Shown here piece after piece: positions 1 to 33,030 of a stretch of DNA of 33,030 nucleotides. Each line of letters opens with the position of its first letter. The stretch's first letter is position 1. The translations under genes were made by a program, and so were the position numbers. Where the stretch lies: IMG/VR virus record IMGVR_UViG_3300034198_001645, positions 1 to 33,030 of that record; one strand, 5' to 3'. A model generated the notes under the pieces. The model was not told the DNA's origin and made no database searches. It worked only from the letters and a program-made list of their open reading frames with translations. Source of the stretch: a virus.

Positions 1-109
1 AAAGCGAGTTGCCAGTGCCTAGCAAATGATAGCAAGCAGCGAACAGCACTGAACCATATACATAGTGCAGTGCTTTGTCGTAGGGCAGTTTGGCGAGGAA
101 GGAAAGCAT
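1..109 (-). CDS. small membrane protein, 5' part only (runs off the window)
   Basis: An open frame of 36 codons begins at the ATG at 109 and is still open at base 1. The protein starts MLSFLAKLPYDKALHYVYGS and continues into a hydrophobic stretch (about residues 17-31, VYGSVLFAACYHLL), so a membrane segment near the N-terminus is likely. Its ATG lies 2 nt after the stop of the tailspike gene, which suggests translational coupling; no strong Shine-Dalgarno is visible. I do not recognise a firm family. Its place after the tailspikes, where many podoviruses keep lysis genes, makes a holin- or spanin-related role possible, but this is inference. Its first 38 nt are duplicated at 1643-1680, which argues that this is a genuine gene start. 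Confidence 0.6.
   Translation of the reverse strand, partial: MLSFLAKLPYDKALHYVYGSVLFAACYHLLGTGNSL
72..109 (-). repeat. 38-bp direct repeat, copy next to the window edge
   Basis: This covers the first 38 nt of the membrane-protein gene. It matches 1643-1680 at 36 of 38 positions in the same orientation; the two differences are C/T changes at nt 6 and 10 from the ATG. Together the copies bracket the 502-residue tailspike gene with a repeat unit of 1571 bp. Confidence 0.92.
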
Positions 110-111
110 TA

Positions 112-1620
112 TTATAAATCTATTGAAGCAAAACCTAACGCCGCAAACCCTGTATAAGCGTTCCAAACAGCACCGGTTGGCTTCAGTATTACAAAACGCG
201 AGTTAATATTTTCTAGAACTACATTAAAAGAAGCATTACCAGCTACTGATGTTCCTGCGCTAGTTGTTACGCTGGCAACAATAGACCCTGTAGTCATTGC
301 TGTTGTTTCTGGAACCAGAACATCAAATGTTCCATATACTCCGGGACCAACACCGTTATTAAAATATGTGCCATTTATTTTTACTGATTTAACAACTGCT
401 CCAAAATCTATTACTACCTGCTGGGCCGCAGTAACAAATATGCCAATACGGGTAGGAAGTCTTGCAGGATAATACTCAATGGTCGCAGTAGACCGTGAAT
501 CTATCATGCTAATTATGGATGCTTTTAATTTATCTAATGTATAACCATAACTTGTATTTAAAAAGCAAAAATAATTTGCTCTAGTCGATCTATTGTAAGG
601 GATTGAAAATTGCATTACCGATTGAGCAGAACGTCTCAATTTTGCAGTATTCTGAATACCTAACATTGTAGGATTAGTTTTATTTGCAGAATACATGAAA
701 AATGCGCCATATCCTTGCATACGCTTTTTATACAGCAAAGTACGCAATTTATTTGGTTCTGAGATATCTGTTGCCGAAGAACTAGATAAATAAGTTTCAT
801 ACACAGGAATAATTCTATTTGCACCATATAACGGCGCAAAAGAACCTAATACCGCATAAGTATTCAAAGCATCTGTATCTGTCAAAACTGGATTATTGCT
901 GTTTTTAGTTTGATAATATAAATCTATAAAAACAAAATCATAATTTGGCGAAAGCGCAAAATTAGGGTAATAATCACCATTATCTGCACAAACGCACGGC
1001 AAATCTAATACGGCTTTTGAAGCTGTAATTGCTGCATTTTGATCTGCTAACGAAACACTATTAGCACTTGGTTCATCAAATACATACCAGCCAATAAGAT
1101 TTTCTACGTCAGTAAATTGATTTAATCTTGTAGTTCTAGTTGCGGTATTTGTTCCGTTATATACCCATAGCAATACACCAAGACCGTATGTAGCAAAGTT
1201 AACAAAATCTTTTTTTGCATTAGCTACACGAGTAGTATCGGTTGTTCCATTAAAATAATATATGACGTATGAAACACCGAGGCTTGCAATATCAGCTGCC
1301 GCGTTAACATCACCATCCAGTTCTTCGGTATAAACACCCCAACCGTTATTAAAATTTTTATTTACGCTTTTTCCAGCAGCTTTTAAATTTGCATAATAAA
1401 CGTCAGCACTTGGAAATGTAATATCATTATACGCAAAAAAAGTGCCGCTAACGGAAGTTGTAACTAAATAACTTCCATAAGGAATATAAACTGGTTGTCC
1501 TGTAGCCGCTGCATTAGTAAATGCAACAGTATCATCCGTCACGCCATCGCCAACAGCACCAAAGTCTTTAACGCTGACAAAGTCACTGGCGCGGTTGCTT
1601 AAATCTCTTGCTCTAGTCAT
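112..1620 (-). CDS. second tailspike: short adaptor plus probable TIM-barrel glycoside hydrolase
   Basis: The 502-residue protein opens with MTRARDLSNRA and a pectate-lyase-3-type start (VSVKDFGAVGDGVTDDT, about residues 16-32). This stretch is shared with the neighbouring tailspike and probably serves as a trimerisation or attachment piece. It does not continue as a beta helix. Residues about 90-330 read like an alpha/beta barrel, with hydrophobic strands such as VSYVIYYFNG, GVLLWVYNG, LIGWYVFDEP, YDFVFIDLYY, IIPVYETY and GAFFMYSA. Glu183 in the DEP motif and Glu275 in PVYETY are spaced as the acid/base and nucleophile of clan GH-A retaining glycosidases. The C-terminal ~150 residues look beta-rich. 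The likely role is cleavage of a host surface polysaccharide during adsorption; the substrate is unknown. The gene is AT-rich and the Shine-Dalgarno is weak, so coupling to the short frame at 1630-1680 is plausible. Confidence 0.72.
   Translation of the reverse strand: MTRARDLSNRASDFVSVKDFGAVGDGVTDDTVAFTNAAATGQPVYIPYGSYLVTTSVSGTFFAYNDITFPSADVYYANLKAAGKSVNKNFNNGWGVYTEELDGDVNAAADIASLGVSYVIYYFNGTTDTTRVANAKKDFVNFATYGLGVLLWVYNGTNTATRTTRLNQFTDVENLIGWYVFDEPSANSVSLADQNAAITASKAVLDLPCVCADNGDYYPNFALSPNYDFVFIDLYYQTKNSNNPVLTDTDALNTYAVLGSFAPLYGANRIIPVYETYLSSSSATDISEPNKLRTLLYKKRMQGYGAFFMYSANKTNPTMLGIQNTAKLRRSAQSVMQFSIPYNRSTRANYFCFLNTSYGYTLDKLKASIISMIDSRSTATIEYYPARLPTRIGIFVTAAQQVVIDFGAVVKSVKINGTYFNNGVGPGVYGTFDVLVPETTAMTTGSIVASVTTSAGTSVAGNASFNVVLENINSRFVILKPTGAVWNAYTGFAALGFASIDL
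1529..1578 (-). repeat. 50-bp repeat shared with the other tailspike (copy 1)
   Basis: This encodes the SVKDFGAVGDGVTDDT segment. It matches 3436-3485 at 47 of 50 nucleotides in the same orientation. The identity also covers silent positions, so it reflects recent common origin or gene conversion rather than only protein constraint. Confidence 0.9.
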
Positions 1621-1629
1621 GGTTTAATC

Positions 1630-1680
1630 TCAATAAAATTTGGCTTTGTCGTAGGGCAGTTTGGCGAGGAGGGAGAGCAT
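1630..1680 (-). pseudogene. 16-codon remnant of the membrane-protein gene
   Basis: The frame starts at the ATG at 1680, which overlaps the tailspike stop by one base (TAATG), and ends at TGA 1632-1630. The peptide is MLSLLAKLPYDKAKFY. Its first 13 residues match the start of the membrane protein at 109 except for L4/F4, after which the similarity stops. This looks like the broken 5' end left when the 502-residue gene was inserted. It may still be translated and hand ribosomes to the start at 1620, 9 nt after its stop. Confidence 0.65.
1643..1680 (-). repeat. 38-bp direct repeat, copy between the two tailspikes
   Basis: This is the partner of 72-109 (36 of 38 identical, same orientation). It occupies almost the whole gap between the two tailspike genes. 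Recombination between the copies would excise exactly the 502-residue gene and place the membrane gene directly behind the 962-residue tailspike with its TAATG junction. Confidence 0.92.
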
Positions 1681-4568
1681 TATACACCCGTGACTTTTAC
1701 CCATGCTGACCAAAGGCCGCTGGTGTCAGATTTGCGATAATAACTTTCCAATAATCCAGCAGAAGATGTATTTCTTGGAATAAATCTTTGCGTTATCCAC
1801 GCAGTATATCCACTTTGTTTTGTTCGTTTTTCGGTAGTTAATACACCTTGCGTAAATCCACCGGACGGTAGACCTGGTGTTGTGACGGCAGCGCTGGAAA
1901 CTGTTGTCGATGCTGTAGCAGCAAGTGTGATTGATGTAGTGCCACCGCCACTTAAAACAAAAGTTGAAAGCGCAGCGCCGCTTGCTCCAGCGCCTGCTAT
2001 AGTGATTTGATCACCATTTGCAATGTTTGCACCCGATGCAACAGCAAGTGATGATGTCCCTGAAGAGATATTGCCCGTAGTTGATGCACCCATCGAACCG
2101 TTCACAACGGTAATAGATGTTCCAATTTGAAAACTTGATTCTGGAGTGGCCGTTGTGAACAAATTCACAGCATTTCCACAGTCATCTGTTAGCCAAGCTT
2201 TGTTATTCACAGCTAAATTAGATGATATTGTATTGCCATAAAATTTATTGATTGAATTCGTTGTTGTGTGCGTTGGTTGTTGAACAATAGCACTGGCAAC
2301 TCTCGAATCAGTAGCGGTAAAAATATTATTTACTATGGTTACGTTTGAAGAAGTGGAGGTAGTTCCGAGCTGTACATATTCTCCACCACCAGTGCTTAAC
2401 CCAATATCAATAAATTGATTTCCACTAACAATAACATTGTTTGCATTTAATATATTTAAGGCAGAGCCATCGCCAGGGCCTGATGTTGTCGAAAATATAT
2501 TGTTAGATATTGTCACAGCATAAGCAGTTGTGTCAGATGTTAAATATCCAACCAAACCAGAATTCTTAAAATTTCTAAACGTGTTTGCGTTAACTGTCAC
2601 ATTAGATGCACCAAATATGCAAAATGGTCTTAAACAGTTTTTTACTGTATTGCCTGTTAATGTAGCCGCGCTATCTGTATATGTTGCTCCGCGCTGCAAA
2701 TTTATGTACAAACCCAAAGCCAACGGTGAATTTTCACAAGTATTATTAGACAATACAATATTATATGCTGGTGAAGTAACAGTTGATGGCGTATAAATTT
2801 GTATGCATGCAACATTGCCGCCGCAATTACGTATTACATTTCCAGTAACCACTAAGTTTCTAATAATATGAAAAGCGTTTCCATCTGGCTCGAAATCGAT
2901 CGCGCCAGGCATATCGTTTCTTGTTAAATTTACAAAAACATTATTGATGATGTTGATTCCGTCAACATCAATAACACTAATCCCATTTCTATTCTGCTGA
3001 TTGATTCCATCAAAAAAACAATTCCGAACAGTTACGTTTATGTTGTGTCTTTCCGCGCTTCCGCTTATACCAGACCCAATGTATAACCCATCTCCACGAA
3101 AGCCTATAAATTGAACATTTTCAATTAGTGCATTTTTTACGCCATTTAACGAAATAAGATGAGTATGTTCTTCAAATACAGGCGCGGTAATATTATTTGC
3201 TTCGACCCGTAAATCACGGATAACAATGTTATCTATGGTCGTAGTTGATGATCCACTTTCAGCATATAGTGACCCGCTGCTGCCGCCTACAACAGATGCC
3301 GACTGTTTTATAATACTTGCAACGCCATCTCCAAATAGAAAATTGTTTGCGTTTAGTGTTACAACGTTTATTAAATATGTGCCAGGAGGAAAATATATTT
3401 TCTTTGCCGCATTAACCGCCGCCTGAATCGCAGCCGTATCATCTGTCACGCCATTGCCCACAGCACCAAAGTCTTTAACGCTGACGGTCTCACGCAGTTT
3501 AGCTTGTACGGTGGTTGCTTGAGCCGATAGTCCTGCAGGAGTGTAAGTAACTTGAGCTGCACTCAGTGCTGTTGAATTAATAGGCTCAGCAGTAACAACT
3601 ACAACGACATCGCCAGGATACGCGCCTTTAACCAGCGTAATTACTGATGCTGAGGTTTCTAAGTAATCGGTGCCACCAATTAGCCTGGAACCGTTCACAT
3701 ATACGGAAACGCCATTGTTTCCCGGAATATATGATGACGTTAAAGTGAATACTGTTTGCTTGCCAGATACACCAACCGTGCCTGATGTAACGTTGAATAC
3801 TTGCTGCGAATAAGTGACATTGGTCTGCATGGTTGCTTGGCCATAGCGGACAAGAATAGATAATCCAAGTGCGGGGGCCGTAGTGAAACTAATGGTCGTT
3901 CCTGACAACGTATAGTCAGTGCCTGGCAATTGCGTAACACCAGAAACGGACACATCCATATTGGCAATGTTGCCTGGGTTTGCTTGCAGCGTGAAACTTG
4001 TCGTTGTGCCGTCACCCGTAAAAGTATCAAACTTCCAATCAGCATATAGCTGCTGAGAAACAATATCTTCAGGCGATAAATTGATCAATGACGTTCCGGT
4101 ATCATCCCAGCCTAAGACTGTGCCACCTTGTGGATATGGCAATGCAGTACTGGCAGTGGATGACAACGGGACAGTAACAGCTCGGCTTAGGTCTTCAGCC
4201 AGCTGTTGAATTTGAATCGTTGCTCGATCTAGCGCATCCTCAATGACATCAGGATAGAAGCCGCCCTGATTGGTTAAGTTAGTTGGCTGCAGGTTACCAA
4301 TGTCTGAAGTAATGGTCAGCTTGTAACCAAATGACAATGCCCCTGCAGTTAATACAACGGTGCCGCCAGGCAATGCATCCTGATTGGCATTTAAGGTAAC
4401 GGTGTAATCGGTTGTGAGCGTTAGTGTAGTTTCAAGATTGCTGGCTTCAGTAAGCAATACAACAAGCAGGTCTGATGCCTGAAATACTTTGAAGTAAAAC
4501 GGGAACGAACTGGCAGTACCATTGCCAGTAAAGGGGCCAGCTTTACGATTGGAGGAAGAAATGCTCAT
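1680..4568 (-). CDS. tailspike/tail fibre with pectate-lyase-type beta helix
   Basis: This 962-residue protein probably binds and degrades a host surface polysaccharide. Residues 1-150 form a virion-anchoring region that resembles the N-terminus of T7-type tail fibres (starts MSISSSNRKAGPFTGNGTAS). At least two more small beta domains follow with the same plan (GDGTTTSFTL...GTDYTL about 183-245; GKQTVFTL...GGTDYLET about 268-330). A pectate-lyase-3 start (VSVKDFGAVGNGVTDDT) lies at about 361, then a long right-handed beta helix with Asn-rich turns to about 800. The last ~70 residues (TQGVLTTEKRTKQSGY...SGLWSAWVKVTG) resemble the knob domain of pyocin and phage tail fibres. The start has AGGA 9 nt upstream. 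An AAGTAACCGTG element lies 50 nt before the ATG. Catalytic residues cannot be assigned by eye. Confidence 0.88.
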   Translation of the reverse strand: MSISSSNRKAGPFTGNGTASSFPFYFKVFQASDLLVVLLTEASNLETTLTLTTDYTVTLNANQDALPGGTVVLTAGALSFGYKLTITSDIGNLQPTNLTNQGGFYPDVIEDALDRATIQIQQLAEDLSRAVTVPLSSTASTALPYPQGGTVLGWDDTGTSLINLSPEDIVSQQLYADWKFDTFTGDGTTTSFTLQANPGNIANMDVSVSGVTQLPGTDYTLSGTTISFTTAPALGLSILVRYGQATMQTNVTYSQQVFNVTSGTVGVSGKQTVFTLTSSYIPGNNGVSVYVNGSRLIGGTDYLETSASVITLVKGAYPGDVVVVVTAEPINSTALSAAQVTYTPAGLSAQATTVQAKLRETVSVKDFGAVGNGVTDDTAAIQAAVNAAKKIYFPPGTYLINVVTLNANNFLFGDGVASIIKQSASVVGGSSGSLYAESGSSTTTIDNIVIRDLRVEANNITAPVFEEHTHLISLNGVKNALIENVQFIGFRGDGLYIGSGISGSAERHNINVTVRNCFFDGINQQNRNGISVIDVDGINIINNVFVNLTRNDMPGAIDFEPDGNAFHIIRNLVVTGNVIRNCGGNVACIQIYTPSTVTSPAYNIVLSNNTCENSPLALGLYINLQRGATYTDSAATLTGNTVKNCLRPFCIFGASNVTVNANTFRNFKNSGLVGYLTSDTTAYAVTISNNIFSTTSGPGDGSALNILNANNVIVSGNQFIDIGLSTGGGEYVQLGTTSTSSNVTIVNNIFTATDSRVASAIVQQPTHTTTNSINKFYGNTISSNLAVNNKAWLTDDCGNAVNLFTTATPESSFQIGTSITVVNGSMGASTTGNISSGTSSLAVASGANIANGDQITIAGAGASGAALSTFVLSGGGTTSITLAATASTTVSSAAVTTPGLPSGGFTQGVLTTEKRTKQSGYTAWITQRFIPRNTSSAGLLESYYRKSDTSGLWSAWVKVTGV
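3436..3485 (-). repeat. 50-bp repeat shared with the other tailspike (copy 2)
   Basis: This is the partner of 1529-1578 (47 of 50 identical) at the point where the beta helix begins (SVKDFGAVGNGVTDDT). It marks the likely module junction used to join the enzymatic part of the spike to the anchoring part. Confidence 0.9.
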
Positions 4569-4617: not shown

Positions 4618-4637
4618 CCACGGTTACTTTCCCGTGG
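4618..4637 (-). promoter_or_regulatory. AAGTAACCGTG element, copy 4, inside a small hairpin
   Basis: The element (CACGGTTACTT on the + strand, 4619-4629) overlaps the stop of the 3448-residue gene and lies 50 nt before the tailspike ATG. Here it also forms a perfect 6-bp inverted repeat, CCACGG/CCGTGG with an 8-nt loop. No T tract follows, so this is not an ordinary intrinsic terminator. Its function is unknown; see the matching elements at 17327, 23489 and 28383. Confidence 0.5.
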
Positions 4638-7600
4638 ACTCCTTGCTCGCAACGCCGGTCACCAAACCCCGGCCAAGATCATAGGTGCTTGTAGGTTGAA
4701 CAGCGCCTCGGTTCACATCTACGGCGTAACCTATTGGTCTGCCAAGTACTGTGAGAGGGATGCCGGTAACTAGGCTGATAAATGTCAAAGAATCTCTGAC
4801 GTTCTTGCCTGTCAATTGCTTGTCATCACTGGCAATGTTGATGCCGGTCTTGATGAATCCGCCTGCACTTTCCAATGCTGTGATCGATGGGCTGACGCTG
4901 ATCTTGTCATCGTACTGAGCAGTGGTTAAAGCGCCATATGTTGCTGTCGCTAACTGGCCAGCAAATGGCACCATGCCTGTGACCATCTTGCCCTGCGATC
5001 CAAAAAACCACGCCATGAATTCGTCAAGATAACCATCGTCATCGTCATCATCCCAGCCAGTTCCTAGGCTGCGCATAATTGCATCACCGATCATTGCAGG
5101 CAAAGCAATGCCCAGCAGGTAGGTATACAGCAGCTTGCCCTTGTTACCGCGCCAGCCAAGGTCACGCATAAGCTTGGTGAATGCAGACACATTCAGGTTG
5201 GCCATCATATTCATGTAGCCACCGAAATGAGTTAGGGTCTTGGTGAACGGTGTGCCAACTTCAAAGGCAGCCAAGTCTTCTGCGGACAGGCTAGACTGCG
5301 TCAAACGGACTGCAGCATCAGCTCGCTGCACTGCTTCCTTCCTGGCCTTCTCGTCACTTACATCAGCGCCCAGCTCTGCCAGTGTCTGATTGTATGTTGC
5401 CGTCCATGTCACCACGTCCACCTGATTCTGGAACGCAGTTTGCAGGAAGTACCCATGTTGCTGGGTCCACTTCTTCAGCTTATCGAACTTGCTCGGATTG
5501 AGCAGGATGTCATTCATGTTTTCTTGAATGTCGAATATCTGGTTTTGCAGTCTGTCCTGCATGAATGTAGATAGCTCAGCCACCTCATCCGTTACCGTTT
5601 GGGTGTTGGAGATATACGATGCCAAGGCACTCTTCAGGTAACGTGGCTGCACCTTCAGGGCTGATGGGAAATAACCAGTCAGCTGCTGCAATGCATTGCG
5701 CAGATTGCCAAACATGATGGCAATACCAGTCCGTTGTCTAATTCCACGCCACACTTCGTCCATAAACTTAGACTTGCCCACTTCAGACGTAATCTGCCGG
5801 GCCGCACGGTTTAGCCATGGGATCAGCATGTCTTCGATCGCGCTTGGGTCTACTCTGCTGAGGTTGTCAGCAAAGCCTCGGTTGCGCAGGATTTTTAGAG
5901 CATCCTTAATCGCTGGCTGAACAAGCGCAAACCGGATCACACTATCAATGTGATTGGTCATCTGGCGAACGTCTAGGCTTAGCGGTCTATTGTATTCAAC
6001 ACGGCCCTTGGTAAAGCCCAAGCCAGTAGATGGCATTGCATTACGGAAGTCTGACTCCAGCGCTTCCATCTTTGATTGACGCTGAGCATCGCGGACAATA
6101 AACGGATCGGTCTTAGCAGGAACGTATCCGCCACGGTAAGAGCCAAACTGATTAGAGAATGGCGTGTTAGGCACTTCCTTGAAATAATAGCCAAACATGT
6201 CGTGGTGGGCCTTTTGAGCCATAGGCTTGATCTCTTCGTTCAGGTCCCAAACCTGCTGCGCGAAATCAAAGTCTTCCTTGGTCAGGTATCCTTCCTTAAT
6301 CATTCGAGCTAGAAACATATCCCAGCGGCCAGTGTTTAAGCTGCCGTCTTCACGGATTACGCCCCAGCCTCGGCCTACTAGCAACTTCTTGTAATTGGAC
6401 TCGTTGCCAATGTGCAGGATGGCACCCAGCAGCTCAGCCTTGCCGATGCCGCCATTGCCATGGCCAAAGCTGTATCCCAGCTCAGGCGCTTCGATAATGC
6501 CTACAGGCAGGTCTAGCCCTTGGATCATCTCTGCATAGCGTCTAACGTAATCGTTGCGCGAAATACGGTAGGCGTTTAAAGCATCCTTGATTGGCCGCCA
6601 GATGTACTTAGTAAATGGCCCAGGACCTGCGACCCCGTCCACAGAATCGGCCCAATGCTCCACCCTGCGTAGGATGGCCTTGGTGTTATTGAACGCCCGG
6701 ACAATTCGATCTTTGGTGGTCGGTGCCTTTAGCTCGCCGGCTACCGTGGCAGGTATACCCACTTCAACCAGTCGGTTGTTCAGCTCGGTGATGACATTGG
6801 CCAGCTCAACCTTTTGGCCCTCAACCATGATCTGTTTGTCACGCTTGGCGTTAAACCACAAAGCGTCTACCGCATCCTTCATGGCACGGAACTCTTCCAT
6901 GGTCAGTTGCTTATAATCCGTGGCACCCGCAGCTGCCTTGAAGATCAATGGCTCAAGCTCGGCGTACAGGTCTGGATTATAGGCTCGTAGCTGCTCGACA
7001 AAATCCAATGGAGACTTGCCCTGCGGTCCAATGCCAAACGCGCTCAGAATCGCTCTGGCTGCGTTTACAAGGTCCATGTCACGGTTCTTGGCAATCTTCT
7101 GATCAGCCTTGAAGAATCGCTTGAAGCTGGTCAGCGCTGTGGCCACTTCGTTGCGGGCATCAACTGCCTCGGCAGCTAATTGACCTTGCAGCAACTGTCC
7201 TTGCTTTTCGCGGGCAGCATCTTTCGATTCGCCTTTCTTCATGTGGGCAAGTGCCTTCTTGGCGGCACGGGCTTCAGCCAGGGAATAATCCCGTGGCTTA
7301 ATGTCCTTGATCTTCTTGCCTGCAATAATCTGCTGCGCGGCCTGCTTAGCAGCCTGCAGCATTACGCGCACGGGTTGGGTAGCCTTGGCTAGGTATCGCA
7401 GCTCTGCAGCCACAAACCGCGCACGGGCCTCAGTGTGCAGCGCCTGCTCAATATTGCGGGCCTGTACTTCTGGGTCCATCAGCTCGGAATGCTCGTTCAG
7501 CATCCGCTCATCGGTGCGGTCATTGATCGCATCTTTGATTGGCTTAGCTTCAGCGATAGCACGGATCATGTCATCGCCGGAGGTAAAGCCAAATATCTCA

Positions 7601-10600
7601 GCGACCATGTCAGGCGGCAGGCCATCATCGGACAGCATGCCACGCAGCTTGGCCATGTCAGGTCCGGCCACTAACGCGCCTTCTGGATACAGCGCTTTGA
7701 CCATGCCCTTGTTTAGCTTATTGCCGGCCTGAACTTCGATCGGGTTACCGTTCTCGTCCTCAAGCTTGCCTGTACGCAGGAAGCGCATAGCACGGTAAAC
7801 AGGCCGGTCTTCTACTTCTTTGGTTGCTTCAGCCTGCACACCTTTGCGTATGTCCTTTACGGTGTCCTGCATCTTCTTGAGCAGTTTGCTTCGCGCATTT
7901 GACAGCCATTTCATTTGACGCAATGTGGACCTGCTCAGGTCACTGACTGCTTCATCGTGCGCAGTGGTCTGCAGTGATTGATACTCAGCCCATTGTTCGT
8001 CATTCATGCCTGACTCTTCTTGAGTCTGGAAGATAGCCTTCATGTTTCGCACATCTTCGGCCTGTGCAATCTGGTCATCGCTGGCCATCAGTCTGTCCAT
8101 CACTTGACGCACTTCGCCAGTAAGAACAGGCAGGTCTTCGCCATGCTCTTGTCGGTAGATTGCATTCAGATCAGTTACGATTGACTTGTATACCTGACGC
8201 AGCCAAGCGCTAAATTTGTCAAATATACTTTGCAATTTCAGGCTTGGTGCTTTGCCTTCGTACAAATAGATTTCATGGTTGTAGGCCCACATCTCATGGT
8301 ATTTACGCTGATCTTCTAGACTCATGGAGTTCCATGTTTCTAGATTAGTCACGCCGAACCAATCAAGTACGGTCTGTGCATCTTGCTTCATCTGCTCAGT
8401 AGCATTTGGCAATCCAGCCAGCTTGAACATTGCCTCAAGATAAAAGTGTCCTGTCTCATGCAGGAACGTAGACATGTCAGTCTTATCGGTGAGAATCGTA
8501 GTCAGAGTTGACGGATCGAATCCACCACGAACGCCTGCAGTTTGCTGGAACAGTGGCTGCGGTTTTTTCAGCTCTGTACGCATCTCAGGCGTGATATCAA
8601 CAACCATCTGCTGCTGATCTGCGCTTGGTTTTCTGTTATGCAATGGCAGGCCAATATCTGACAAATAAGGCTTCCCACCAAGCTTGCTAACAATTTTGCT
8701 AACCACTTGCGGCAGGATTCCATTGTAATAACCAATCATTCCTTCGCCACCAACTTCAAGTTGATCGCCTTCAAGCATATGAAGCCCGCCAAAAGTAGGC
8801 TCTGCCATTAATAGCTTCTTAGCGGTTTCGATTCCAACGATGCCCTCAAGATCACCCTCTGCGACATCTTTTTTATACAGCACTTCCATACGGGCAGAGT
8901 TCCAAGCGCGCAACAATTGACGTTTTGGGTCGTAAGATAGATATTCAATTTGCTGTCTAAGATTGAAACGTTCTGCAGCTTGCTTGCCATTAATAAACGT
9001 AACTTTCTTATAACCATGATCAGCCGCATAACGCATGATGCGTTTTACCGCTAATGATGACCACGCTTTGGTGTCGGTCACAAATGGAGCAGATGGCTTA
9101 ACTTCTCTATCTCGTAAAAGCCACTGTCTATCTAGCTCATTAATTTGCTGGTGTACGCTTTGCAGTTCATTGTGTATTTCAGTCAACAATGTGACATCAG
9201 CTACCAGCTCAGGATTTTGCACAGCTTCATCATACTTTTTAGTAAGCTCGCCTTTTTTTAACCTAAGCTTTGCATATTGAGGGGTAAGGTGTTTTTTTGG
9301 GCCAAACCCTGCTTTACGACCTTCTTGTCCCCAATCGCTTTGAATTTCCTCAACAAATAATGATCCATCTGGACCTGTGCCTAATCTGACATGGGCCAAC
9401 ACGTTCCGCTGATCCCAATGGCTGCTTTCAAAACTAAGTTGTGAATCGGTGCCATATGCTTTGTATTGCGGTGACATGCGAGCTGCAATTTGACTGTCAA
9501 ATACAACAGGCTCATCGCTAATTGGATCAAGTACTGGCGCACCATTTTCGTGTACCAATAAATATGTTCCTTTGCGATTAGGATTCTCTATTACTTCAGG
9601 CTTAATGATAGGTAAACGTAATAGTAATTCTTTGTAGTCTTTTAGACCAAAAGAATATTTATCATATTTACTTGCTTCAATATCTTCAAGGTCATGGCGA
9701 ATGTCTCGCGGTACGTCTAAATCTTCAAGCTCCACCAACTCGCCTTCGCGATCAGTAAATGTCCAGTCACCATATTTGTATTCAGCCTCATAGCCATAAG
9801 GCTCAAGGATGTCATTGGCTGCCTGCACGAAATCGCCGTATAACATGGTCTCTTCAATGCGAACGCCAGTGCTGTTAAGGTAATCGGCAATCTCTTGTTT
9901 GGAAACGCTTGCCCGATCTTCTAGGAATTCAGCTAAATCGGTAGCTTCAATTTCATCAGCTTTGGCTGATTTTCTAAGTATGTTTAGCCAATCGTTGCCT
10001 GGTGCTTTATCTACCTTGGCCGTTTGCACGGACTCAAGCAGCACGGATTTCCAAATAGGTGCAGTTTGGAATAACACGCCACCCTTACCTAGCTTGGCCA
10101 GAGCAGCGTTTTGGTACGCTAATGCATCGCCATAATTTTCTGCAACTGGACCATCGGTTTTTTCATATCCGCCGTAATATTTAGGATCGTAGACCATGAA
10201 CACAACATCCGGCTCACCGTTGTTGAATTTTGCGAATGCCTGCTTATCCCATCCTTGTGGCGCTTCTTTGTCATCCCATTTAAGACGGGATACAGCAACA
10301 AAACCATGGGCCGCATACATCTTTGGCAGGATAGTGTCAAAGGCATCTAACTTGGTGCCGCCTGCAGCGATAGCTATTTCAAGCATTGAACGGCCTGATC
10401 CATTGTTAGAGAACAATGAAACGATGTCACCGTCCTGCTTAACGGCAATACCAGATTTTCCGTCAGCGGAAACAAACAGGCGCATTTTTTGGTAGTCTTC
10501 TGCGGAATATACATATACCGCAGCGCCCATTTTTTTAGCGCTTTGTTTTGATTGGGTAATTAATTCTACAAATTTTTGAGCAGATTGCTCAGTAGGTTCT

Positions 10601-13600
10601 AATTCAAATACTTCAGGAACATTGATTCCATTCCTGCGTAATGCGTTTGCTAATTTATTTCCGGGCTTCCATTCCCGGATAATTGTTACACCAAGTGACT
10701 TTTTCTTTTTGGCTGTTAAAAGCCCGCTTGTTGCATCATTTCCATAATCTCTTCCTTGGTAAGACCAGGATAGTTTTTGAGCGCCCACTCGATTGGATCG
10801 AGAGCGCTGGGTTGCAACGGCTCCACGGAAGAGCTTCTTTTCTTGCTGAGTAAAACCTCGATCTTCTTCGTACTGTCTTTGGATTGCCTGATCGGCTTCC
10901 TCTGCTGCAGCTTCAAGTCCTGCATCTCTTGTGCGTCCACGATCTTTCTCCTGCTGTAAAGCATTATTAATAGCAGCGACACTAACCCGCTTTGAGCGAG
11001 CTACTGCAGCTGCGGCGTTTGCATAATCTGGTGCCTCTTCATCAGCATAACCTTCGGTTTCTGCCAATTCAGAGGGGTCTTCTTTGGCGGTTTCATACAG
11101 GCGTTTTTCTGCATACCACAAAACTGCTTGGAGGTCCGCCATCTGTAGATTGGCATAATCAGGCATTTGACGCAACTGATCCAGCATGCCGGTGAATATT
11201 TGTCGGATGTAATTACGTTCGCCAGGACCTGATGGCGCTTCTTTCTGGCCATCCAAATACTTGGCCAATGAATTGCCTGACTTGCGGAACTCCTCGCCAA
11301 TTTCAGTTGCATTCATTCTTTCGCGCAAAGCAGGGTCCATACTGGCTTTCTGAACAATCTCAGACAGAGCGTTCAGGTCCATGTCGGCGGTAATCGGTGT
11401 GCCTACGATCTCGCCAATTCTGGCAGCTTCTGTTTCGTCTGCGGCGATCTTTTCAACAACTGACTTAAGGCGCGCAGTAGCTGCTTCTGTCTGCTGAGGT
11501 TGCGTTTTGATCAGGGTGCCTGTCCATCGGCCCCAAGTACGGATCAACCAGCGATCCATCGTTAGTGCATCAAAATGTCCATACAGATTAGAAAAGAAAC
11601 CGTTACCGATCTTTGGGCCAAGGATTGCGGCACCACGGACATAAGTATCCGCATGCTCTCCGCCTGGAGTTAGATCAGAATTCAGCGCAGTGATTTCACC
11701 TACCGTGAAATTAGTCATCATAAACTTGCGCAGGTTATCCATTCCCCATGCAGCGCTTAAATCATTAAATAACTGCAGCCCTTCATTAATTGCTTTTTGA
11801 GCTTGGCCACCTTTGATATTGGTTGGCATCTTGCCTTTCTTTTTCCATTGGGCATAAGCCTTTTCTGCAAGCTCGAAATTCTTATCTACTTTCAATCCAT
11901 TGGATGTCACCGCCAATGCCCATGTAAACGCAAACCGAGCGGTTTCGTCTGTGGCAATCTCAGGATGCACCAATGCCATAATGGCAAGCGCTTGACGGGT
12001 TTTGAGGTCATACCAGCCAATTGCATTTGGGTTTTGCTGCAATGCCATCAAGGCATCTTTAACGCCTGTGCGTATTAAGTACTCAGTTGTCTGAGGCCCA
12101 GGAATGCTTACATCTACGCCGGCAGCATCAGCCGCCTGCTTTACAGAATTCTGCATGGCCATCTTCAAATCGCGGCCACGATTCCAAGTTGTAGATTTAG
12201 CAAGCTTTAATGTGCTATCTAAAACTGCAGCATCATCTACGCTTGTAGGTACAGCGGATTGATCAACAGGAGCAGCATCGTCTTCGCCCGGCGCTGTATC
12301 TGTCTGAGCTGAATCAATCTCGCCAATTGTTTCTTGTGCAGTCTGATATAAATAATTTGCCTTTTCCCCATACGTTACATTTTTTGCCAACACTAATGGC
12401 CCGATCTGGATAACCTCATCAGCGGCCACTACGGGCTGCATGGTTTCGCGGTCATAAAAATAAGCGTGACGCTCAGGGTCCATACCCACTTGCCGCCATG
12501 CTGGATCGCTCAATGCAGCATCCGCTTCTGCCTTTGCTTGTTCTGGTGTGACTTTGCGCCAGTTGCCCTTGATGACAGCAATGGTGCCTTTGCTTGTTTT
12601 GCCTGTAGCAATATTGAGCGCGCCTTTACCAGGCATGCCAAAGGTAGCATTGGTCACTGCAGCAACATTGTCATATCCGACAACGGTACCGGCTTGGAAA
12701 GATGATGGAGATGTGCCTGGTTTTTGTTCGTGTACGCTAACGATCCAAGTGTTATGTCTTAGATACGCAGGAATGTCTAAGCGCAAACCAACTGGCGCGC
12801 CTTCCTGTAATTCTCTAGGTGCAAATAGCTTGCTTTGCTGGTCTTCTTTTAGCGCAGTGCGCATTGCATCATCGGTTTCAGGCATAGGCACCGATTGATA
12901 AGGCAGCACGGGCTTGTACTTATTTACAATAGCCTCATGCTCTTCTCTGGTGATTTCGCCACGCTCTAACTGCTGAGTTGCCTCAGTGAGCTGCTGCACA
13001 CGCTCGCCAACATTCTTACGGATGTATTCTTCTTGGCTTAATGTTTGCGCCTGCTCGAACGAACCGGTCGTTACGTTGTAAGGTAGCAACTTGTACAAGT
13101 CCATTGGCTTCATGTTCAAAGCCTTGGCTTGCGTCACATAGAAAGCTTGCACAGACTTCGCGTATGCGCGTGAAGCTTCTGGCAGGTATTGGCCAGTGGC
13201 CTTAATCTGGTCGTGCAATGTCGTTTCAACTTCTGCAGCTGAATCGACAAACTCCTTTTCAGTCTGAGCATCTGCAAGAATCTGGGCAGACTCAGTGGAC
13301 ATCTGCCCTTGCTGTTTAATCATCTCTTGGCGCTTAGCCTCAACGTCACGGGCCTCGGCTGCACTAGGCAGCTCAGGATTGACGCGAGCATGCTCGACAA
13401 TAGGACGCATCGCCTCATCTGAAGCAACGGCCATAGCAAACTGTGATGCAGGCACAACGATATCGCCGCCAGTTTGCAACGCTGTCTGTAGGTCCTGATC
13501 AGACACTAAAGTCTGCAGCTGTGACTGATTTAGGAGTTGGCTGGCTACTGTGGCATCGATGTGAATGTCTCCAGCTCCAATGTCATCCATTAAGTCCTTT

Positions 13601-14970
13601 ACGTCTTCTGCATTGCGCTTATGAGATTTTGTTGCTTGAACAGCATCAATCACTTCATTCAAATTTTGCTCGCCATATACAGCGCGTTGATTTTCGTTCA
13701 TGCTGCGAACATGCTGATCATGCAATGTTTTCATTACTGAAGTCTGCATGACCGTTGCCAAGGTAGTTTGCACAAAAGTATCTAACGCTGCGCTTGGACG
13801 CTCAGACAAATAATCGCCAAATGTTTTGTCTTTGTTTTCAGGCAGCATGCCCCATGACAATAAATCTTGAGCATGAGTAGCCACTTGCTCACTTAGATTT
13901 TCGCTAACCAACTGATTGCGTAATATTTTCCATAACGGCGCATCCATTTTAACGTCTTTGACCAATAGGCCAAACGGCATCATTTCTGTAATGCCTTCTA
14001 TTACGCCTTGTCCGCCAGCATATCCAAGAGTAGCCCACGGCCCCATGCCCTGCTCATAAGCAGCAGATGCTTCTTGTCCGGCAACATTTAACGCCATTGG
14101 AGTAACGGCAAGAGCATTAGCTTTTGTAAAGTTTGCAGTCAACTTTCCAAGCATTGTTTCTGCAGCCGGAATAGATTCCGCAGCAACCGCCTTTTCAAAT
14201 GCAAATGGCAAACCAAGCGACAGAACTTGCGCAACGCTAGAGCCTGCACCAAATAGCATTTGCCTGCCGTAACTTGCGCCTTCACCCGCACCAGCAAATT
14301 CTTGCGCTCCAGTTGCAACTTGACCTGCGGTTTTCGCAAATCTCAATTGTTCTTCTGCAGTCCTAGAAAGAAAATTATTTTCTCCAAGGATCGGTGACAG
14401 CAATTCTGCTTGCGCACGATTCATCGCGCCTGACAACCCGGTATAGCCCTGCAAAACACTAGCGCCAGCATGACCAATAACGCCAAGCGCGCCTCTAAGA
14501 GTTCCTAATAAATCATATTGATAATTTGTTCCTGGTATAGGAATCTCTGCATGCATATTCTTTAATTTAGTTGTAGATGACTCTACGTTTCCTAAATGCG
14601 GAATATCATCAATTGTTCGTGCAGCAAAGTCTTTAGTTAAAAATCGATTTGCTAATGCTGGACTATTATCCAACACCGAAGTTGAATCTAATAAAGATAC
14701 ACGGCGCTTAGCATCTTGAGTATCCAGCGCATTAGGTGACCATTGCTCATTGGCCTTTGCATTTAATTGATCTGCCAAGCGTTTACGTTCAGCGGCATCA
14801 TCTGCATTGCCGAATGATGCGTTATATGCATTAGCTTGCGCTATAGAATTATCTTTTGGCTGACGAACTTGCTGCAATAATGATGAATACTCATCTGTCA
14901 CTACAGGTTGCTTAGGCGCAGGGGATTGGCCTGATCGAACTTGTGCAAGCAGATCATCAAATTCACTCAT
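4624..14970 (-). CDS. giant internal virion protein, polyvalent, with zincin motif
   Basis: At 3448 residues this is far longer than T7 gp16 (about 1,318), whose place in the gene order it takes. It probably rides inside the capsid and is ejected into the host. Visible parts: hydrophobic Gly/Ala-rich helices at about 150-340; a charged region about 450-600; a conserved block about 700-870 (IQIGPLVLAKN); a helical block about 950-1180; a possible acyltransferase-like block about 1535-1600 (LPKMYAAHGF); a polyvalent-protein block with EEIQSDW at 1874-1880; a metallopeptidase motif HETGH at 2171-2175, with Glu2233 (HEIYLYEGKAPS) as likely third zinc ligand; long coiled-coil-like helices to about 2900; and a membrane-like C-terminal region (about 3285-3320) ending near a PLTVLGRPIGY motif typical of PLxRFG-type phage proteins. 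AAGG lies 9 nt before the ATG, which overlaps the preceding stop (TAATG). Confidence 0.85.
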   Translation of the reverse strand: MSEFDDLLAQVRSGQSPAPKQPVVTDEYSSLLQQVRQPKDNSIAQANAYNASFGNADDAAERKRLADQLNAKANEQWSPNALDTQDAKRRVSLLDSTSVLDNSPALANRFLTKDFAARTIDDIPHLGNVESSTTKLKNMHAEIPIPGTNYQYDLLGTLRGALGVIGHAGASVLQGYTGLSGAMNRAQAELLSPILGENNFLSRTAEEQLRFAKTAGQVATGAQEFAGAGEGASYGRQMLFGAGSSVAQVLSLGLPFAFEKAVAAESIPAAETMLGKLTANFTKANALAVTPMALNVAGQEASAAYEQGMGPWATLGYAGGQGVIEGITEMMPFGLLVKDVKMDAPLWKILRNQLVSENLSEQVATHAQDLLSWGMLPENKDKTFGDYLSERPSAALDTFVQTTLATVMQTSVMKTLHDQHVRSMNENQRAVYGEQNLNEVIDAVQATKSHKRNAEDVKDLMDDIGAGDIHIDATVASQLLNQSQLQTLVSDQDLQTALQTGGDIVVPASQFAMAVASDEAMRPIVEHARVNPELPSAAEARDVEAKRQEMIKQQGQMSTESAQILADAQTEKEFVDSAAEVETTLHDQIKATGQYLPEASRAYAKSVQAFYVTQAKALNMKPMDLYKLLPYNVTTGSFEQAQTLSQEEYIRKNVGERVQQLTEATQQLERGEITREEHEAIVNKYKPVLPYQSVPMPETDDAMRTALKEDQQSKLFAPRELQEGAPVGLRLDIPAYLRHNTWIVSVHEQKPGTSPSSFQAGTVVGYDNVAAVTNATFGMPGKGALNIATGKTSKGTIAVIKGNWRKVTPEQAKAEADAALSDPAWRQVGMDPERHAYFYDRETMQPVVAADEVIQIGPLVLAKNVTYGEKANYLYQTAQETIGEIDSAQTDTAPGEDDAAPVDQSAVPTSVDDAAVLDSTLKLAKSTTWNRGRDLKMAMQNSVKQAADAAGVDVSIPGPQTTEYLIRTGVKDALMALQQNPNAIGWYDLKTRQALAIMALVHPEIATDETARFAFTWALAVTSNGLKVDKNFELAEKAYAQWKKKGKMPTNIKGGQAQKAINEGLQLFNDLSAAWGMDNLRKFMMTNFTVGEITALNSDLTPGGEHADTYVRGAAILGPKIGNGFFSNLYGHFDALTMDRWLIRTWGRWTGTLIKTQPQQTEAATARLKSVVEKIAADETEAARIGEIVGTPITADMDLNALSEIVQKASMDPALRERMNATEIGEEFRKSGNSLAKYLDGQKEAPSGPGERNYIRQIFTGMLDQLRQMPDYANLQMADLQAVLWYAEKRLYETAKEDPSELAETEGYADEEAPDYANAAAAVARSKRVSVAAINNALQQEKDRGRTRDAGLEAAAEEADQAIQRQYEEDRGFTQQEKKLFRGAVATQRSRSNRVGAQKLSWSYQGRDYGNDATSGLLTAKKKKSLGVTIIREWKPGNKLANALRRNGINVPEVFELEPTEQSAQKFVELITQSKQSAKKMGAAVYVYSAEDYQKMRLFVSADGKSGIAVKQDGDIVSLFSNNGSGRSMLEIAIAAGGTKLDAFDTILPKMYAAHGFVAVSRLKWDDKEAPQGWDKQAFAKFNNGEPDVVFMVYDPKYYGGYEKTDGPVAENYGDALAYQNAALAKLGKGGVLFQTAPIWKSVLLESVQTAKVDKAPGNDWLNILRKSAKADEIEATDLAEFLEDRASVSKQEIADYLNSTGVRIEETMLYGDFVQAANDILEPYGYEAEYKYGDWTFTDREGELVELEDLDVPRDIRHDLEDIEASKYDKYSFGLKDYKELLLRLPIIKPEVIENPNRKGTYLLVHENGAPVLDPISDEPVVFDSQIAARMSPQYKAYGTDSQLSFESSHWDQRNVLAHVRLGTGPDGSLFVEEIQSDWGQEGRKAGFGPKKHLTPQYAKLRLKKGELTKKYDEAVQNPELVADVTLLTEIHNELQSVHQQINELDRQWLLRDREVKPSAPFVTDTKAWSSLAVKRIMRYAADHGYKKVTFINGKQAAERFNLRQQIEYLSYDPKRQLLRAWNSARMEVLYKKDVAEGDLEGIVGIETAKKLLMAEPTFGGLHMLEGDQLEVGGEGMIGYYNGILPQVVSKIVSKLGGKPYLSDIGLPLHNRKPSADQQQMVVDITPEMRTELKKPQPLFQQTAGVRGGFDPSTLTTILTDKTDMSTFLHETGHFYLEAMFKLAGLPNATEQMKQDAQTVLDWFGVTNLETWNSMSLEDQRKYHEMWAYNHEIYLYEGKAPSLKLQSIFDKFSAWLRQVYKSIVTDLNAIYRQEHGEDLPVLTGEVRQVMDRLMASDDQIAQAEDVRNMKAIFQTQEESGMNDEQWAEYQSLQTTAHDEAVSDLSRSTLRQMKWLSNARSKLLKKMQDTVKDIRKGVQAEATKEVEDRPVYRAMRFLRTGKLEDENGNPIEVQAGNKLNKGMVKALYPEGALVAGPDMAKLRGMLSDDGLPPDMVAEIFGFTSGDDMIRAIAEAKPIKDAINDRTDERMLNEHSELMDPEVQARNIEQALHTEARARFVAAELRYLAKATQPVRVMLQAAKQAAQQIIAGKKIKDIKPRDYSLAEARAAKKALAHMKKGESKDAAREKQGQLLQGQLAAEAVDARNEVATALTSFKRFFKADQKIAKNRDMDLVNAARAILSAFGIGPQGKSPLDFVEQLRAYNPDLYAELEPLIFKAAAGATDYKQLTMEEFRAMKDAVDALWFNAKRDKQIMVEGQKVELANVITELNNRLVEVGIPATVAGELKAPTTKDRIVRAFNNTKAILRRVEHWADSVDGVAGPGPFTKYIWRPIKDALNAYRISRNDYVRRYAEMIQGLDLPVGIIEAPELGYSFGHGNGGIGKAELLGAILHIGNESNYKKLLVGRGWGVIREDGSLNTGRWDMFLARMIKEGYLTKEDFDFAQQVWDLNEEIKPMAQKAHHDMFGYYFKEVPNTPFSNQFGSYRGGYVPAKTDPFIVRDAQRQSKMEALESDFRNAMPSTGLGFTKGRVEYNRPLSLDVRQMTNHIDSVIRFALVQPAIKDALKILRNRGFADNLSRVDPSAIEDMLIPWLNRAARQITSEVGKSKFMDEVWRGIRQRTGIAIMFGNLRNALQQLTGYFPSALKVQPRYLKSALASYISNTQTVTDEVAELSTFMQDRLQNQIFDIQENMNDILLNPSKFDKLKKWTQQHGYFLQTAFQNQVDVVTWTATYNQTLAELGADVSDEKARKEAVQRADAAVRLTQSSLSAEDLAAFEVGTPFTKTLTHFGGYMNMMANLNVSAFTKLMRDLGWRGNKGKLLYTYLLGIALPAMIGDAIMRSLGTGWDDDDDDGYLDEFMAWFFGSQGKMVTGMVPFAGQLATATYGALTTAQYDDKISVSPSITALESAGGFIKTGINIASDDKQLTGKNVRDSLTFISLVTGIPLTVLGRPIGYAVDVNRGAVQPTSTYDLGRGLVTGVASKESTGK

Positions 14971-32907: not shown

Positions 32908-32931
32908 TCGTTTGCGCTTTGCTCGGTCGTT

Positions 32932-32967
32932 GAATAGATTGGCGAATAGATTGGCGAATAGATTCGC
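32932..32967. repeat. three tandem 12-bp operator-like repeats
   Basis: GAATAGATTGGC twice, then GAATAGATTCGC, in tandem upstream of the early promoter. The last unit with its preceding two bases makes a perfect palindrome, GCGAAT-AG-ATTCGC (32954-32967); the first two are the same site with one half changed. This pattern fits an activator or repressor with graded sites. Confidence 0.8.
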
Positions 32968-33015
32968 TATGTTGTGGAGCGCAAAAGCCAATCCATTATC
33001 TGCAAGCTATGTTGT
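32966..33015. repeat. 10-bp direct repeat pair
   Basis: GCTATGTTGT occurs at 32966-32975 and 33006-33015, exactly 40 bp apart (about four helical turns), beside the tandem 12-mers. It may be another protein-binding pair of the control region. The end of an upstream gene may also lie here, so coding origin of one copy is possible. Confidence 0.55.
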
Positions 33016-33030
33016 CACTCGCAGGCGCTC

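Follow-up and report, generated by a model that had tools for sequence, protein, structure and literature searches.

A short DNA tag repeated behind the tailspike genes of a phage suggests how viruses may trade host-recognition genes

The DNA analyzed here is the virus record IMGVR_UViG_3300034198_001645, a stretch of 33,030 nt that we refer to as the window. On its minus strand lie, in this order, the gene of a 962-residue spike (4568-1680), a short sequence that we call the tag, the gene of a 502-residue spike (1620-112) and the start of a small membrane-type gene, which runs from position 109 into the end of the contig. The features are listed below.

1-109, minus strand: 5' part (36 codons) of the small membrane-type gene, with the remainder on contig 3300034198_007197
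1-87, no strand: exact 87-nt overlap with contig IMGVR_UViG_3300034198_007197 (its 8556-8642)
72-109, minus strand: tag copy B, the 5' end of the complete membrane gene (sequence match)
112-1620, minus strand: 502-residue spike, a PGA motif followed by a predicted TIM-barrel glycosidase body (profiles, predicted structure)
1523-1578, minus strand: PGA-motif DNA, the proposed 5' handle, holding the 14-nt tract to which a putative crossover maps
1630-1680, minus strand: 16-codon stub ORF starting in tag A (MLSLLAKLPYDKAKFY), its end 9 nt ahead of the 502-residue start
1643-1680, minus strand: tag copy A (short), 38 nt that resemble the membrane-gene start and follow the 962-residue spike without a gap (TAATG)
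1680-4568, minus strand: 962-residue anchored tailspike, with the DNA of its PGA motif (VKDFGAVGNG) at 3430-3485
32944-33030, no strand: exact 87-nt overlap with contig IMGVR_UViG_3300034198_007197 (its 1-87)

The 502-residue gene takes up most of the 1,571-nt unit between the tags, and its body is AT-rich (GC of 0.32 to 0.35 at 501-1500 versus 0.49 to 0.56 at 5001-8000); low GC is also found within the 962-residue gene (0.36 to 0.41 at 2001-3500). Ahead of the spikes, a single ORF of 3,448 residues occupies positions 4624-14970; it had no Pfam match at E 0.001, and its C-terminal part is kept in podophage relatives.

The contig IMGVR_UViG_3300034198_007197 (8,642 nt) shares 87 identical nucleotides with each end of the window, so that the two records together form a 41,498-nt circle and probably represent one complete phage genome stored in two linear pieces. 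The membrane gene behind the 502-residue spike is complete, as had been claimed, but beyond the 36 codons in the window its sequence lies on this second contig, followed by a 671-residue spike, a 74-residue gene and an M15 endolysin, with genes for Sak (6.7e-32), YqaJ (4.2e-17) and SSB farther along. In all, the circle, which belongs to a podophage, encodes three spikes with the PGA motif, of 962, 502 and 671 residues. The portal of the window is 76 to 80% identical to those of Limnohabitans phage DC33, phage zth2-2 and the Manatee Spring record MW202640, 73% identical to that of MW202722 and 65% (over 96%) to that of Bordetella phage BPP-1. The DC33 record (L123, PQ492659.1) is labeled Inoviridae, and its 39-kb genome has a podovirus-type portal 76% identical to that of the window. 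In the backbone relatives, as compared by eye, the spikes are likewise followed by an endolysin and a small gene whose start is similar, a likeness that supports joining the window to the second contig.

The contig ends inside the tag and membrane gene, which hints at a branch in the assembly at this point; the 502-residue and membrane genes of another phage could then have been joined artificially to this backbone via the 38-nt repeat. We consider this highly improbable, since the 87-nt overlaps point to assembly with words much longer than 38 nt, the two ends of the window join up with the second contig in a single circle, and the small gene and M15 endolysin behind the spikes resemble those of the backbone relatives. 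The other contig junction, at window positions 32929-32965, begins within a tandem 12-nt repeat (GAATAGATTGGC), the copy number of which may differ across the population.

The original prediction called the 502-residue protein a spike. Pectate-lyase-type spike profiles do match it, but only over the first ca. 55 to 90 residues, and the rest is a predicted TIM barrel. This remainder has 10 matches in phage records, at 22 to 31% identity, among them the tailspikes of Acinetobacter phages Bestia and APK26 and a "lyase" of Escherichia phage PE3-1, and a DEP motif is invariant across the eight sequences (two of them near-identical) of its alignment. The predicted structure is of modest confidence (mean pLDDT of 54.8, >70 over much of residues 40 to 165) and has an alternating beta/alpha fold. 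By VIA, it aligns with glycosidases such as GH5, GH35 and GH164 over 234 to 260 residues, with Z values of 15.7 to 18.3 and rmsd of 3.1 to 4.4 in the 50 matches listed; the Foldseek list also includes unrelated TIM barrels, and the best viral matches carry the annotations depolymerase and lyase. The barrel matched no Pfam family, and a profile of its alignment gave nothing significant against solved structures. The best reading of this predicted body is a TIM-barrel enzyme with a presumed glycan-degrading activity. Neither a tag nor a membrane gene stands in the stretch compared behind seven other TIM-barrel spikes (L152-L158), so the tag does not go with the TIM body.

The body of this spike and the membrane gene recur together as a 1.7-kb unit in the viral contig IMGVR 3300046804_001050, where they are 92% identical over an alignment of 1,702 columns that begins in the PGA motif and stops close to the 3' end of the membrane gene. 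The counterpart there has 560 residues and carries a different N terminus. When window positions 4600-33030 were compared with this second phage (G002), there were no DNA matches in a search that does recover the spike unit; the terminases are only 29% identical, and five other backbone proteins had no significant match in the second-phage parts L003 and L066. By these comparisons the second phage has a different backbone, although a lysis stretch common to both (71%) indicates that the spike locus has not been the sole contact between them. Among the backbone relatives checked (DC33, MW202640, zth2-2, MW202722, and IMG/VR loci L048 and L053-L058, a comparison covering 18 kb of DC33, 14 kb of MW202640 and parts of the IMG/VR loci), the conserved start of the 962-residue spike was present in all and the 502-residue and membrane genes in none. 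The spike locus is thus variable within the backbone lineage. The presence of the unit at 92% identity in a different backbone, together with its absence from the backbone relatives checked, supports the proposal that the 502-residue gene behaves as a mobile receptor-binding cassette. The boundaries are other than first drawn, as the unit common to both phages starts in the PGA motif and takes in the whole membrane gene, rather than spanning the distance from one repeat to the other (1571 bp).

We compared the PGA DNA of the 502-residue gene with that of the 962-residue gene and of the 560-residue gene in the second phage at diagnostic sites. The first five sites were all 962-like and the next four all 560-like, with 14 identical nucleotides between them, while the last two variable sites of the stretch were private and 962-like. 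We read this pattern as the apparent trace of a crossover within the 14-nt tract. The PGA DNA itself is conserved (identity of 0.87 to 0.96 over 50 nt versus 0.23 to 0.54 in the flanks, for five spikes and 9 of the 10 pairs), and codons for the same amino acid were identical in 105 of 137 comparisons versus 52 expected from codon usage, although the pairs are not independent. Phages of Vibrio, Salmonella and Pseudomonas match this DNA at 82 to 87%, so its conservation may have other causes.

At the 3' side, window positions 72-109 and 1643-1680 are identical at 36 of 38 nt, and a repeat search extended the pair to 41 nt at 95%. A 26-mer common to both occurs twice in the window, versus a mean of 0.00 in 100 dinucleotide shuffles, and the 38-nt direct repeat around the 502-residue gene, as originally described, is real and far from chance. 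The tag corresponds to the first 21 to 38 nt of the small membrane-protein gene, which in this phage is complete only behind the 502-residue spike. Two copies do flank this spike as predicted, but they are not the only ones, a third tag standing behind the third spike on the second contig. Scanning with the first 21 nt and up to four mismatches located five sites and none elsewhere in the window, the second contig (L067) or the second-phage parts L003 and L066 (contig 3300046804_001050). All five PGA spikes, three in this circle and two in the second phage (IMGVR 3300046804_001050), have a tag behind them, which begins at the spike stop codon or at most 2 nt from it. Two of these tags open a full gene, behind the 502-residue spike here and behind its 560-residue counterpart. 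The other three are short, the one in the window having 38 nt and those that follow the 671-residue and 638-residue spikes 35 nt each.

Conservation is highest at the beginning of the tag. Over 10-nt bins (five tags, ungapped, 9 of the 10 pairs, the homologous 502/560 pair being excluded), mean identity was 0.84 and 1.00, then 0.46 to 0.48 in the next two bins, with flanks at 0.23 to 0.40. Perfect runs among the ten pairs measured 28 and 29 nt (two pairs), 23 nt (one pair) and 11 to 15 nt (seven pairs). Past nucleotide 21, the short tags have a weak likeness to the membrane gene, and 62 of 5,000 shuffles scored as high. Position 10 of the tag is C in each of the three short copies and T in the two full-gene copies, so that a simple duplication of the downstream copy does not account for the upstream one in the window.

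These data bear on the proposal that insertion of the 502-residue gene duplicated the target and that the gene can be lost again between the repeats, as a host-range switch. Two direct copies do flank the gene and share a perfect run of 28 nt, and loss between them would leave the 962-residue gene, TAATG and the membrane gene, restoring the junction, as can be read from the sequence. Excision through the repeats would thus be possible, but we found no empty-site contig in a search that omits records very near the window, nor was an integrase or resolvase found. Moreover, three further copies stand behind other spikes, one in this circle and two in the second phage, so that the repeat is not confined to the ends of an insert; the upstream copy, by its base at position 10, belongs with the remaining short tags; and the shared unit takes in the membrane gene and has its start in the PGA motif. 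On these grounds we rejected target-site duplication, and we regard the whole insertion-and-excision scheme as improbable. Taken overall, the original prediction is partly supported.

A second possibility is that the tags are passive relics, each spike having brought its own membrane gene and deletions having left the starts behind the 962- and 671-residue spikes, with no role in exchange. A real gene does begin with the tag, and this gene is complete after the 502- and 560-residue spikes. Moreover, in one distant phage (L016), two complete copies of a membrane gene (954-1238 and 5732-6016, alike at 239 of 285 nt), with four ORFs of 473, 190, 703 and 70 residues between them, show that two such copies can share one spike-side region. 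However, the 671-residue spike here and the 638-residue spike of the second phage, which are unrelated, end in 35-nt tags that match at 34 of 35 nt, while the sequences to either side are dissimilar; independent decay would give stubs differing in length and sequence. We therefore hold this explanation to be unlikely, if still worth serious consideration.

L016 is one of 36 loci (L006-L041) in other phages with distant relatives of the membrane gene, many of them adjoining ORFs of varying length, and it was the only one of the 36 with direct repeats at the start of this gene. The membrane protein of the second phage had no matches in phage records, PHROGs, Pfam or NCBIfam; the distant relative L007 had a weak VanZ match below the cutoff and matched one PHROG of unknown function.

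Each of the three short tags gives rise to a tiny ORF with TAT TGA at its end (MLSLLAKLPYDKAKFY at window positions 1630-1680; L005 2243-2272 and L003 12405-12434, with MLSLLAKTY). This could point to a translation element, in which ribosomes would re-initiate at the tag ATG near the spike stop, read the tiny ORF and pass to the next gene. In all five tags the distance of the ATG from the spike stop is between -1 and +2 nt, and the stub behind the 962-residue spike stops 9 nt before the 502-residue start, but the next long ORF begins 18 nt past the stub behind the 671-residue spike and ca. 69 nt past the one behind the 638-residue spike. RNA structure, a terminator and an Rfam family were all looked for and not found. 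We give little credence to this explanation.

The folds of four tag regions were no better than those of shuffles (z of 0.14 to 1.98), there was no terminator-like site at the L005 tag, and terminator, promoter and Rfam readings of the tag were rejected, as nothing was found (the promoter and terminator scan covered L005 1-3000). In IMG/VR, the tag pattern was present on three viral contigs, those of the two phages and L068, the last without a spike ahead of the match. A looser pattern gave 19 stretches on viral contigs, in which three matches, on the two known contigs, were behind spikes and the other 17 stretches were not. Because records very near the window are omitted from these searches, some close relatives may have escaped them. 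Among genome contigs, none of the 54 matches to the tag pattern was behind a PGA spike, by a PGA pattern slightly strict in that it misses the variant of the 962-residue spike. Lastly, blastn of the tag against 50,697 phage records gave only partial matches of 17 to 22 nt at E 6.

We consider it probable, on balance, that the short 3' tags and the ca. 50 nt of PGA DNA act as homology handles for exchanging and stacking spike cassettes. In this model, short-homology annealing between phages, or between tandem spikes, would occur at the PGA motif on one side and at the tag or membrane gene on the other, and would replace, add or remove one spike body while leaving the anchor and the remaining genome untouched. 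The 502-residue TIM-barrel spike would have come by such an exchange together with its complete membrane gene, and the 38-nt copy ahead of it would be the tag already standing behind the 962-residue spike. Exchange by two handles would explain the tag behind every PGA spike, the conservation of the PGA DNA beyond codon usage and the crossover within one handle. The model is also favored by the near-identical 35-nt tags of two unrelated spikes and by the paired membrane-gene copies of L016. The Sak annealing protein and YqaJ exonuclease of the phage could plausibly carry it out; there was no Sak match in the second phage. Deletion of the 502-residue unit by the same route is plausible as well. 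We infer the repeated use of the handles, the part of Sak and YqaJ and a change in host range from these patterns, in the only two phages known with tagged spikes. The data suggest that such tags help viruses to trade host-recognition genes. A predicted TIM-barrel body behind an N-terminal motif usual for beta-helix spikes would, moreover, represent exchange across folds at one DNA handle.

A bolder version, to which we assign a low probability, is that the tag is a dedicated, selected module boundary and the locus an integron-like but integrase-free spike array run by phage single-strand annealing, in which identical PGA DNA would open, and an identical 3' tag close, each spike. If this were true, any two tagged phages in one cell could trade, stack or drop spikes. 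A site-specific cassette array found no support, PF00589 and PF00239 each being found in 0 of 3 records (controls positive in 14 of 14 and 10 of 14, respectively), although a host enzyme might serve instead. While changes of phage host are usually inferred from finished mosaics, here the proposed handles are repeated behind each spike in one genome, and together with a crossover pinned to 14 nt this makes gain, loss and exchange of spikes measurable by simple amplicons or long reads.

Several known systems can be set beside this locus. BPP-1 (AY029185) has the receptor-type genes bbp9 and mtd adjoining a large ORF, bbp10, and varies Mtd via a reverse transcriptase and TR/VR repeats. Here no reverse transcriptase was found, and a diversity-generating retroelement was rejected (PF00078 in 0 of 3 records; control positive in 3 of 14 genomes). 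In the Ackermannviridae, according to the accessible part of PMC11414711, an added tsp gene recombined with tsp4, or tsp3 was lost and tsp4 truncated. These loci also hold several tailspikes, but the homology described in that part is in the N-terminal domains, with no mention of a 3' tag such as the one found here. Rad52-like phage recombinases are described in the available sections of PMC3945230 as capable of relaxed recombination, with DNA of the tail fiber region exchanged over short or diverged homology, and the minimal pairing segments quoted are 23 to 27 bp for Red-beta and 31 to 34 for RecA. At 28 nt, the longest perfect match between tags of the present genome is above the former and below the latter; the recombinases tested in those sections were Red-beta and a RecT, whereas Sak is known here from annotation alone.

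The closest likeness is to lytic coliphages, in which short stretches of DNA ahead of the receptor domain (44/95 nt) and just past the gene (20 nt) are conserved across genera, and these motifs have been proposed as recombination hotspots (PMC10408124, in the portion accessible). Both cases have conserved DNA before the receptor domain and directly behind the gene, across backbones (here, n = 2 phages). The coliphage 3' motif is described in that portion as noncoding and a predicted terminator, whereas the tag is a gene start without a terminator fold and, unlike the motifs reported there, is repeated behind three tandem spikes of one genome. We found no earlier description of tags repeated in this way, in literature that covers few subscription papers. 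With two phages, the present evidence does not amount to a new kind of system: handles flanking receptor domains had already been proposed, and what is new is that the tags are repeated within one genome and derive from the start of the neighboring gene.
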